Origin: Halobellus litoreus
GTDB lineage: Archaea > Halobacteriota > Halobacteria > Halobacteriales > Haloferacaceae
Length of the DNA stretch: 64,000 nt
Direction of reading: 5' to 3'
NCBI RefSeq assembly: GCF_024464595.1
Contig: NZ_JANHAW010000002.1
Span: 1,116,001 to 1,180,000 of the forward strand
In this document: positions 35,671 through 48,703 of the stretch, piece after piece
Layout: each line of letters opens with the position of its first letter
Numbering within the stretch: position 1 is the first letter of the stretch
The notes under the pieces: generated by a model
The model's database searches: none
Seen by the model: the letters and a program-made list of their open reading frames with translations, nothing else
What the model was told of the DNA's origin: nothing
Made by a program: the position numbers and the translations under genes

Positions 35671-36531
35671 CTACTCCACGTACTCGCCGATCAGCGGCTC
35701 CAGGTCCGCCTTCGTCGAGTCCGGGATCGCTTCGTCGGGCGTGTTGATCGTCCCCTCCAAGGAGGTGTGACAGTCGCACCCGTGATCCTCGGGGAGCGCG
35801 CGGATCGCCGCCTCGACGGTCTCTTTGATCGCCGTCTCGTTCTTCGCGGCGTTTTCGAGCACCTCCTCCAGCGTGACCTCGCTGTCTTCCTTCCAGACGT
35901 CGTAGTCGGTGACGCCGGTGACCGTCGCGTAGGCCATCTCGGCTTCGCGGGCGAGTTTGGCCTCCGGAATCGTCGTCATCCCGATGACGTCCCAACCCTG
36001 GTCGCGGTAGAACTCGCTCTCGGCGCGGGTGGAGTACTGCGGCCCCTCGATGCAGACGTAGGTGCCGCCGCGGACGACGTCGGCGTCGGTGGCCGATTCC
36101 GCCGCGTCGGCGAGGACCTCGTTGAGTTCCGAGCAGTACGGGTCGGCGAAGGGCTGGTGAACGACGACGTCCTCGTCGAAGAACGTCAGGTCGCGGTGCT
36201 TCGTCCGGTCGTAGATCTGATCCGGAATCACGAGCGTCTGCGGCGGCAAGTCCTCGCGGAGACTACCCACGGCGTTCGAGGCCAGGACGTGCGTGACGCC
36301 CATCTGCTTCAGCGCGAAGACGTTCGCGCGGTAGGGGAGCGTCGTCGGCGATCGCTGGTGGTCGGGACCGTGCCGCGGGACGAAGACGACCTCCCGCCCG
36401 GTGTCACCGAACTCGCCGACCGTGAGCGGCGCGGAGGGCTTCCCGAACGGCGTGTCCACGTCGACTTCGCGCGTGTCCTCCAGCGGCAGGGCGTCGTAGA
36501 TTCCGCTCCCGCCGATGAATCCGATGGTCAT
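35671..36531 (-). CDS. mtnP: S-methyl-5'-thioadenosine phosphorylase
   Basis: 286 residues. GFIGGSGIYDALPLEDTREVDVDTPFGKPS, VFVPRHGPDHQRSPTTLPYRAN, SNAVGSLRE and GGTYVCIEGPQYSTRAE are hallmarks of the trimeric MTAP/PNP family. The enzyme splits methylthioadenosine by phosphorolysis to adenine and methylthioribose-1-phosphate, recycling polyamine/SAM by-products. The C-terminal HGCDCHTSLEGTI includes two close Cys as in archaeal homologues. The ATG at 36531 follows a TATA-like TTTTAGCG at ~25 bases; the longer upstream frame is not supported. Confidence 0.92.
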   Translation of the reverse strand: MTIGFIGGSGIYDALPLEDTREVDVDTPFGKPSAPLTVGEFGDTGREVVFVPRHGPDHQRSPTTLPYRANVFALKQMGVTHVLASNAVGSLREDLPPQTLVIPDQIYDRTKHRDLTFFDEDVVVHQPFADPYCSELNEVLADAAESATDADVVRGGTYVCIEGPQYSTRAESEFYRDQGWDVIGMTTIPEAKLAREAEMAYATVTGVTDYDVWKEDSEVTLEEVLENAAKNETAIKETVEAAIRALPEDHGCDCHTSLEGTINTPDEAIPDSTKADLEPLIGEYVE

Positions 36532-36552
36532 AACCGAGGGTTCGGGCGCGGG

Positions 36553-36562
36553 CGCTAAAACC
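36553..36562 (-). promoter_or_regulatory. TATA-like box of the MTA phosphorylase gene
   Basis: GGTTTTAGCG on the minus strand, about 25 bases before the ATG at 36531, in GC-rich surroundings. The spacing again implies a leaderless or nearly leaderless transcript. Confidence 0.5.
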
Positions 36563-36594
36563 CGTGGGTCTCGTGTCGAGGGGTCAGAAGCAAC

Positions 36595-36804
36595 GTTATA
36601 TACGAAGCCGGGCCCAGACGGGCCGTGATCTGAATCGAGCCCCGCGTCGGGCAGCGGGTGTCCGGCACGTCGACGCGGGACGACGGAGCGGCCGCCAGTC
36701 GGGGCGGGACTGGCGGCCGAGCCGAACGGGTGCCGGCTGTTCGCCATCACCGAAGCTCGCGAGATCAGCGAGCGGAGCGGCAGGCTCTCACGTCGGACGT
36801 GACG
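36595..36804 (+). ncRNA. Candidate structured non-coding RNA with TATA-like box
   Basis: A TATA-like GTTATATACG (36595-36604) is followed, from the expected transcription start near 36628, by a series of perfect hairpins and no coding frame of quality. The strongest is an 11-bp stem GGCCGCCAGTC/GACTGGCGGCC (36690-36700 and 36708-36718, 7-nt loop), enclosed by CCGGCAC/GTGCCGG (36662-36668, 36730-36736). Others are GCTCGC/GCGAGC (36755-36773) and TCACGTC/GACGTGA (36788-36802). A first small stem GGCCC/GGGCC lies at 36611-36624. It has no tRNA, 7S or RNase P signature that I can find. It lies between the divergent MTAP gene and the stop of the minus-strand AEC gene, so it may instead be read as that gene's 3' end. 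Confidence 0.4.
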
Positions 36805-36824
36805 TCTGAGTGCGCCCGTCGGCC

Positions 36825-37781
36825 TCACACCACGACGCCGCTCTGAAGCACCGCGATCAGCACGGTCAGGGTGAGGACCGAGACCATCGTCGTCGCGAAG
36901 ATCGCCGTCGAGACGAACTCGGTGACGGGGACGCCGGCGACCTCGCCGTCGGCGAACTCGCCGACGAGGATGAGCGGCGTCACCGCCGACGGCATCGCGC
37001 CTTCGAGGACGAACGTCCGCGCGACCGCGGGATCGGAAAACCCGACGACGAGGGCGACGCCGATCCCGACGAAGGGCACGAGGATCATCTTCAACCCGAC
37101 GACGCCCGCGACCGCCGACAGGGTCGAGCCGACGTTCGTCCGAGCCAGTTGGATCCCGAGGAGCAGGAGCATCACCGGGATCGCGGAGTCGCCGACGAGC
37201 TGGAGCGTCGACATCACCGTCGAATCCACCGGCGGGACGAGATCGAGCGCCCGGACGACGAGCGCGACGGCGACGGCGTAGATTAGGGGGACGCTGAACA
37301 CCCGACGGACGCCGTCGAGGCGGTTCTCAGCGGTTCCGCGGGAGGCGATGTACACGCCGACAGTCCAGATGAGCACCGCCTGGACCGAGAGGTAGACCAC
37401 GGCGGTCGCCCGTCCGGTCGCGCCGAACGCGAAGTTCGAGACGGGGACGCCGTAGTTGCCCGTGTTGGGGAAGGCCGCGACGAGGACGATAGCCGCGAGC
37501 GCCGTCTCCGAGACGCCGAAGAGCCGACCGGCCGCCTCGGCGACGAGGACCGTGAGGACGTGAAAGAGAAGAATCGCGACCGTGATCCGAGCGAGCGTGG
37601 ACTGCGCGAGGGTCGTCGTGGTGAGGCTGTGAAACACCAGCGCCGGCGCGAGCACGTAGACGACGATCGTGTTGAGCGCGTCCGTCTCGACGTCGCGGAC
37701 CCGCCCGAGCAGGTAGCCGACGCCGCCGACGGCGACGATCGGGAGGATCGCGGTCGCGAAGACGGAGACCAGAGAGACCAC
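36825..37781 (-). CDS. AEC-family transporter
   Basis: 318 residues with about 10 hydrophobic helices. The pattern YVLAPALVFHSLTTT and AFPNTGNYGVPVSNFAFG, with the conserved GNYG(V/L)P, identifies the auxin-efflux-carrier/malonate-permease family (bile-acid/arsenite-like fold). The substrate is unknown. It is monocistronic, downstream of nothing obvious. Confidence 0.85.
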   Translation of the reverse strand: MVSLVSVFATAILPIVAVGGVGYLLGRVRDVETDALNTIVVYVLAPALVFHSLTTTTLAQSTLARITVAILLFHVLTVLVAEAAGRLFGVSETALAAIVLVAAFPNTGNYGVPVSNFAFGATGRATAVVYLSVQAVLIWTVGVYIASRGTAENRLDGVRRVFSVPLIYAVAVALVVRALDLVPPVDSTVMSTLQLVGDSAIPVMLLLLGIQLARTNVGSTLSAVAGVVGLKMILVPFVGIGVALVVGFSDPAVARTFVLEGAMPSAVTPLILVGEFADGEVAGVPVTEFVSTAIFATTMVSVLTLTVLIAVLQSGVVV

Positions 37782-48628: not shown

Positions 48629-48703
48629 AGCGGGATGGGATAGCCAGGAGATTCCGCCGGGCTCATAACCCGGAGATCGGTAGTTCAAATCTACCTCCCG
48701 CTA
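48629..48703 (+). tRNA. Initiator tRNA-Met (CAT), without intron
   Basis: A 75-base cloverleaf. Acceptor arms AGCGGGA/TCCCGCT, so the first pair is A1:U72, an archaeal initiator hallmark; A is the discriminator base. The anticodon loop CTCATAA is closed by CCGGG/CCCGG, giving the three consecutive G:C pairs of initiator tRNAs. T-arm GGTAGTTCAAATCTACC is complete. CCA is not encoded. It is followed by a partial duplicate of its 3' end (see the repeat at 48683-48845). Confidence 0.95.

Follow-up and report, generated by a model that had tools for sequence, protein, structure and literature searches.

The junction between an MTA phosphorylase gene and an AEC-type transporter gene in Halobellus litoreus raises the question of whether the bases between the two genes encode an RNA and, if so, what such an RNA would do. 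An earlier note on the 64,000-nucleotide stretch of DNA analysed here (the window) had proposed a new structured RNA at 36595–36804, with a TATA-like box at the expected distance, several perfect hairpins and no coding frame. It had considered a regulatory role at the MTA phosphorylase gene or a long 3′ end of the AEC gene, and had called for a covariance search among haloarchaea and for compensatory changes. The TATA-like box could be located at 36595–36602, the distance to the RNA was right, with the start predicted at 36625, and several strong inverted repeats were confirmed within an anatomy richer than had been described. Folding of the 210 bases of 36595–36804 against 200 dinucleotide shuffles gave z values of −2.38 on the + strand and −3.07 on the − strand (2 and 1 shuffles as good), while the predicted RNA, 36625–36746, gave only −1.57 (13/200 shuffles as good). 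The excess over the shuffles was modest, and these values refer to a nested fold, in which a pseudoknot cannot be included. When the whole window was scanned against Rfam 15, no family above the gathering cut-off matched the RNA, and nine sub-threshold matches in 36400–37000 (E up to 10) included none that was credible. A tRNA gene at 48629–48703 was the sole gathering-level match in the window.

The first DNA search with this stretch gave numerous matches within the own genome and further ones in relatives (21 of 60 genomes, E up to 0.001). A core pattern with up to three mismatches matched 42 times in the own genome, and its reversed control not at all; this comparison, together with the covarying stems described below, excludes a chance origin of the hairpins. 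The covariance model R1, built from these 42 copies, found 55 matches in the own genome (E up to 0.01) and 21 to 62 matches in each of 12 of the 17 genomes of the genus, 524 in total; no match was found in the other five, two of which are incomplete (68 and 72%). The search among haloarchaea that had been called for was productive: in a draw of 146 genomes from the order, R1 matched 98 (E up to 0.001), some of them only weakly, in 38 of 56 genera, with 1 to at least 28 matches per genome and a best E below 1e-8 in 67 of the 98. A second model, R2, made from 91 copies (the 42 and 49 distant ones), matched all 14 named genomes searched, namely Halobellus captivus (50), Halobellus clavatus (51), Halobellus salinus (37), Salinigranum salinum (35), Haloparvum sedimenti (16), Salinibaculum litoreum (12), three species of Halorussus (4, 12 and 20) and five species of Haloferax (3 to 6 each). 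In a draw from the phylum, to which stricter filters were applied, all 17 matching genomes of 148 belonged to the window's order, and the family is therefore haloarchaeal as far as searched. PLSDB contained one matching record, a Halobellus limi plasmid with two places. The predicted RNA was 79–219 nt long (89 of 91 copies), with a median of 115 nt in the own genome and 81 nt among the distant copies. A literature search judged by titles and abstract openings, supplementary tables lying outside it, found no description of the family; single Haloferax copies may be present in sRNA tables, and the RNA is apparently undescribed as a family.

The RNA gene in the window extends over 36595–36746 on the + strand (Table 1); about 55 copies, this one included, are scattered through the genome. 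Its start codon lies at the distance from the TATA box at which transcription is expected to start in haloarchaea. The parts follow each other in the order BRE, TATA box, GRCCA box, start codon, stop codon, about 7 nt, stem 1, loop, stem-2 strand, usually 2 nt, stem 1, loop 3, stem 2 and tail. The conserved region runs from a BRE-like CG about 6 nt 5′ of the TATA box, where the window copy deviates from the family consensus, to an abrupt end after CTGTTCGCCA; the end at 36804 proposed earlier lies too far downstream.

Table 1. Parts of the RNA gene in the window and its neighbouring genes.
Feature	Position	Strand	Observation
TATA box of the RNA gene	36595–36602	+	GTTATATA, family consensus TTTATATA; rich in T and A and constant in position among aligned copies, with the start codon about 30 nt further 3′
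GRCCA promoter box (here GCCCA)	36612–36616	+	Between TATA box and start, about −13 to −9; CA in 42/42 own-genome copies, A in 49/49 distant copies
Predicted transcription start and predicted leaderless two-codon frame GTG ATC TGA	36625–36633	+	Start, one codon and stop in 42/42 own-genome, 49/49 distant and 150/153 Halobellus copies
Stem 1, 5′ strand CCCGCGTCG	36641–36649	+	Partner 36671–36679
Loop 1 of pseudoknot, conserved GCG	36650–36661	+	Column counts
Stem 2 (pseudoknot), 5′ strand CCGGCAC	36662–36668	+	Complement of 36730–36736
Stem 1, 3′ strand CGACGCGGG	36671–36679	+	Pairs with 36641–36649
Variable loop 3	36680–36729	+	In the window copy an 11-bp hairpin, 36690–36700 with 36708–36718, from sequence and fold
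Stem 2 (pseudoknot), 3′ strand GTGCCGG	36730–36736	+	Complement of 36662–36668
Conserved 3′ tail CTGTTCGCCA	36737–36746	+	Strong conservation across 41 own-genome and 48 distant copies (all but L078 and L287), falling to background 3′ of it
Neighbour, MTA phosphorylase gene	35671–36531	−	Divergent from the RNA gene
Neighbour, AEC-type transporter gene	36825–37781	−	Convergent with the RNA gene; name as given in the earlier note

Compensatory changes were found in both stems. In stem 1, 99.3% of 819 cells were paired across the 91 sequences and both sides had changed in 8 of 9 pairs; the covariation score was 0.567, compared to 0.140 when shuffled and at most 0.144 when slid, in an alignment that had been fitted to the model. 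Stem 1 contained 30 G–U cells and no A–C cells, which identifies the + strand as the functional RNA; a long 3′ end of the AEC gene, a gene on the opposite strand, is thereby rejected. Stem 2 was tested by locating the tail motif independently of pairing. It paired at 7/7 positions in 77 of 91 copies and at 6/7 in seven more; among the remaining seven, two (L078, L287) gave no 3′ strand that could be recognised at the position selected, and five paired by eye with the register shifted by one. The per-pair table therefore covers the other 84 copies, in which the first pair was TA 34, GC 31, CG 12 and AT 5 times and was paired in 84/84, against a shuffled mean of 36 and maximum of 49. With five G–U and four A–C cells, stem 2 gave no indication of the strand. 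Two crossing helices, both covarying in the aligned sequences, make an H-type pseudoknot a well-supported assignment, and these stems lend strong support to the idea of a new structured RNA. A longer stem 2 through GCGRNYG and CTGTTCGC was rejected, since these segments are conserved without covariation and so give no extension into loop 1. A reading as an H/ACA or C/D guide RNA was weakened, as the window copy has no Rfam match and no such box was seen by eye in the conserved columns. Loop 3 ranged from 3 to 146 nt across the 91 copies. The 11-bp stem reported earlier is real but sits in this variable loop, which measures only 3–8 nt in 31 of 91 copies. Palindromic MITE-like insertions were seen within loop 3 of one copy (L079) and flush behind the RNA tail of another (L004, genome G009).

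All 91 aligned copies carry RTG-NNN-stop at the predicted start, an arrangement with a frequency of 0.5% in shuffles; the statement that there is no coding frame holds for protein, but GTG ATC TGA lies exactly at the predicted start of the window copy. The third codon was examined in 153 Halobellus copies, those fetched out of the 524, after exclusion of one loose-pattern match on the minus strand (L086) without RTG or promoter. It was TGA in 106, TAG in 31, TAA in 13, TGG in two and TGC in one, the last being followed by TGA. The three stop codons interchange and TGG is avoided, as is G at both last positions (Fisher p 9e-20, from copies that are not independent). The start codon was GTG in 85 and ATG in six of the 91 copies and GTG in 152 of the 153, with an A directly 3′ of it in 145 of the 153. 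The second codon varies, in the distant copies at all three bases, and at the window's own junction two relatives carry ATG CGT TGA and GTG TAC TGA. The spacer from stop to stem was 7 nt in 80 of 91 copies.

Exceptions were seen in Haloferax, where the two-codon frame was missing in 4 of 10 copies inspected: CAG or CAC stands where the stop is expected in L344, L345 and L346, and L340 has ATG TGA only. One own-genome locus, L368, has ATA at the start position. In five Haloferax species, copies are kept at two sites (L325, L327, L328, L329 and L331; L340, L342, L344, L345 and L346), one next to what we take to be a HAD-type phosphatase gene, the other next to a presumed YcaO-type gene. At the second of these, the two-codon frame is missing from four of the five species, with the pseudoknot strands still present. 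The available part of one transcriptome study gives 72% of Haloferax volcanii coding transcripts as leaderless and GUG as the start of only 6–9% of leaderless Haloferax transcripts (PMC4983044). A leaderless start at RTG is predicted from the TATA distance, and it is likely, judging from the codon pattern, that most members of the family have a translated frame, initiated at a weak start codon. The prevalence of GTG despite the rarity of GUG starts, and the nearly constant A after it, suggest that conservation of the motif may in part have a different cause.

By a crude gene caller that relies on codons, all 42 own-genome copies were intergenic. They are followed by a convergent gene in 27 cases and by a codirectional one in 15; over the 91 copies the numbers are 61 and 30; the convergent excess gave a binomial p of 0.088 for the 42 own-genome copies and 0.009 for the 49 distant ones. 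Median gaps to a convergent gene were 53 nt (own genome) and 28 nt (distant), with gaps down to 0, and those to a codirectional gene were 134 and 83 nt, as if room were needed for a promoter. Because the copies are intergenic and have no fixed downstream gene, they can be regarded as standalone RNA genes. A riboswitch or cis leader was rejected, since with a convergent downstream gene in 61 of 91 copies the RNA is not the 5′ leader of a codirectional gene. A role as regulator of MTA phosphorylase fares no better: the RNA is directed away from that gene, which has its own TTTTA box 29 nt 5′ of its ATG (read from the sequence), about 54 other copies lie elsewhere, and the junction copy is present or absent among relatives. 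The MTA phosphorylase/AEC junction contains the RNA in the window's genome and in G006, G007, G009, G011 and G013 and lacks it in G003, G004, G014 and G015; in G005 the neighbour differs. At the G014 junction (L254) a different inverted-repeat element takes the place of the RNA gene. Orthologous copies recur within families, and a comparison of own-genome with distant copies found a single position that agrees in gene, side and strand, at a gene that adjoins L075, L273 and L278 and is presumably dihydroorotase-like. The occupied and empty junctions together with the few shared positions imply that copies are gained and lost, with the RNA itself under continued constraint. Two own-genome copies, L073 (C2:1217 kb) and L085 (C2:1305 kb), share one sequence from the TATA box as far as the stem-2 strand and differ beyond it, including in a compensated stem-2 change; the sequences suggest recombination between copies.

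The promoter of the RNA is shared with a small set of protein genes. A pattern of TATA box, GRCCA and RTG at fixed distance, with up to three mismatches, gave 58 matches in the own genome and 0 for the control. Forty-six were RNA copies, 40 by coordinates and six in addition (L365, L366, L368, L370, L374, L375). The other 12 were not RNA, and nine of them had an open frame of at least 150 codons at RTG. The non-RNA genes with this promoter include those for DUF7382, DUF7283 (followed by DUF7285 and DUF7284), a T2SSE secretion ATPase, DUF7310, a ParA/MinD-like ATPase and DUF7857. The T2SSE ATPase and the DUF7310 protein lie in the DUF7283 neighbourhood, a T2SSF-like protein precedes DUF7283, and the N-terminus of DUF7382 is, in our reading, pilin-like. 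A type IV pilus-like locus (T2SSE ATPase, T2SSF-like membrane protein, DUF7283/7284/7285, DUF7310) and, apart from it, DUF7382 and ParA-like genes have this unusual, predicted leaderless GRCCA promoter in common (L358–L362, own genome, C1:991 kb and C2:814–854 kb; L376–L424), and the GRCCA promoter of DUF7283 and DUF7382, with the box at about −10, is present in many haloarchaeal families. A search of the literature under the DUF names found nothing.

The strict GRCCA box was present upstream of DUF7283 or DUF7382 at 33 of 48 loci in 25 genomes (L399 and L425–L429 left out), and GRCGA could be seen by eye in 8 of the other 15; this variant also occurs in RNA copies (L283, L293). A control anchored on genes flanking RNA copies showed the strict box in 16 of 286 cases, some possibly being the RNA's own promoter. 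Across 146 genomes, DUF7283 and the RNA were both present in 78, RNA only in 20, DUF only in 9 and neither in 39 (Fisher 2e-12, relatedness not removed); at an RNA best E below 1e-8 the corresponding numbers were 59, 8, 28 and 51. The co-occurrence exceeded expectation but was loose, not strict. The GRCCA box near −10 is unlike published haloarchaeal promoters, for which the available part of the transcriptome study gives a BRE of CGAAA, a TATA element of TTWT and a WW −10 element (PMC4983044). Control by CdrS was rejected, its sites lying mostly 41–110 nt upstream of starts in the portions available of two reports (PMC8406309; PMC7439475). A promoter common to the RNA family and the pilus-like genes is well supported by these sequence comparisons.

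The function of the family is put forward as a hypothesis. Tentatively, and at somewhat less than an even chance, we propose a ribosome-docked regulatory RNA with a two-codon frame and a pseudoknot, made with the type IV pilus-like regulon. Because haloarchaeal ribosomes initiate on leaderless mRNA, an RNA starting with a start codon should be entered; a ribosome would bind at the 5′ start codon, as it does with any leaderless mRNA of haloarchaea, make one peptide bond and end translation at the stop codon in third position. The pseudoknot about 7 nt beyond the stop would then sit at the mRNA entry of the ribosome, which may be held or slowly released at the 5′ end of the RNA. In recoding signals, ribosomes are slowed by such an arrangement, but here no recoded frame is kept. 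Most simply read, a ribosome that stays docked or leaves only slowly would itself be the point, and the product that matters would be the RNA carrying a ribosome, not the peptide. The docked ribosome could protect the RNA, be withdrawn from use, or serve as a mark for a partner. Made together with the pilus-like regulon from the same promoter box, the RNA would probably dampen or retune translation during regulon activity. Distinctly more doubtful is the wider proposal of a haloarchaea-wide RNA class in which a ribosome, deliberately loaded and stopped after one peptide bond before the pseudoknot, would be carried in a regulatory particle switched on with a pilus-like transfer or secretion machine. 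If the docking proposal is true, a two-codon leaderless frame before a pseudoknot would be a new way of coupling RNA to the ribosome. Conserved RNA genes that number up to about 60 in a genome, with matches in 38 of the 56 haloarchaeal genera sampled, have apparently gone undescribed as a family, and the common promoter connects them with a pilus-like locus whose function is unknown (DUF7283 and partners), which offers a way into both.

Several known systems offer comparisons. H-type recoding pseudoknots, such as the coronavirus IBV frameshift signal and the murine leukaemia virus readthrough signal, likewise have two stems a few nucleotides past the decoding site, a first stem of about 9–11 bp and a tolerant third loop; the haloarchaeal RNA, in contrast, lies outside a long mRNA, follows a two-codon frame, keeps no downstream frame and is a standalone gene whose copies may number tens. 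Minimal start-stop frames upstream of a gene, like the AUG-UAA element in plant boron transporters, are similarly very short, with loading and stopping a ribosome as the only apparent role, but they control the downstream gene on the same mRNA, whereas the haloarchaeal RNA has no consistent following gene. HDV-like self-cleaving ribozymes have crossing helices, a variable hairpin before the last strand and a nested P3. The RNA shares the crossing helices and the variable hairpin, and an HDV-like ribozyme was nevertheless rejected: only about 2 nt separate the stem-2 5′ strand from stem 1, leaving no nested P3, and the window copy has no Rfam match. In Haloferax volcanii, 42 of 56 detected sRNAs showed ribosome occupancy, most without coding evidence, in the available part of one report (PMC12482152). 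These too are haloarchaeal RNAs without a detected protein, though occupancy is only proposed for the present family; in that part they are not described as one family, and the word ‘pseudoknot’ is absent from its text. Vesicle cargo was also considered for the RNA, and the available part of a Haloferax vesicle study describes enriched ncRNAs without a common motif (PMC10927574).

Other readings of the same features have to be weighed against a docked ribosome. The arrangement of a stop, about 7 nt and an H-type pseudoknot resembles known recoding signals, and the 7-nt spacer falls within the 5–9 nt given for frameshift structures in the available part of a published account (PMC8211752), so the pseudoknot could drive stop readthrough or frameshifting to yield a short peptide from the RNA body. 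This is very unlikely, as the distance from stop to tail shows no fixed phase (38/26/25 in 89 of 91 copies), no frame is open more often than the other two (78/77/78 of 89) and no downstream coding frame is conserved, TGA, TAG and TAA are all used, and loop 3 varies so widely. An unlikely reading of the frame itself is that RTG-NNN-stop is untranslated, an RNA or initiation motif GTGANNTRA that merely reads as start and stop. The near constancy of GTG and of the following A in Halobellus and the Haloferax exceptions fit such a motif, but the third-codon variation tracks stop codons almost exactly, the second codon of distant copies varies at each of its bases, and six of 91 copies have ATG instead of GTG. 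An RNA acting in cis, as antisense or insulator on the 3′ end of a convergent neighbour, would accord with the convergent excess and the gaps down to 0. We give it as little weight as recoding, because the downstream gene is codirectional in 30 of 91 copies, neighbours differ between families apart from the single shared site, and compact packing explains short convergent gaps.

The number of copies invites two further explanations. Tens of copies of a single promoter type, also found before pilus-like genes, could act as a decoy that titrates a factor binding the GRCCA box, with the RNA secondary. That the RNA body covaries, that most promoter matches are RNA copies and that nine of the 12 others begin long open frames make a decoy quite improbable, if slightly less so than recoding. 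A slowly spreading selfish or mobile element with its own promoter and RNA is about as unlikely as an untranslated motif. Copy numbers from 1 to about 60, junctions occupied in one species and empty, though too diverged to show a target-site duplication, in another, the few positions common to different families and the identical 5′ halves of L073 and L085 would suit it. On the other side, the two conserved edges do not form inverted repeats; IMG/VR gave no exact pattern match; the 3′ strand is retained by 41 of the 42 copies, though the finding pattern favours intact copies; and orthologous positions are occupied in several species.
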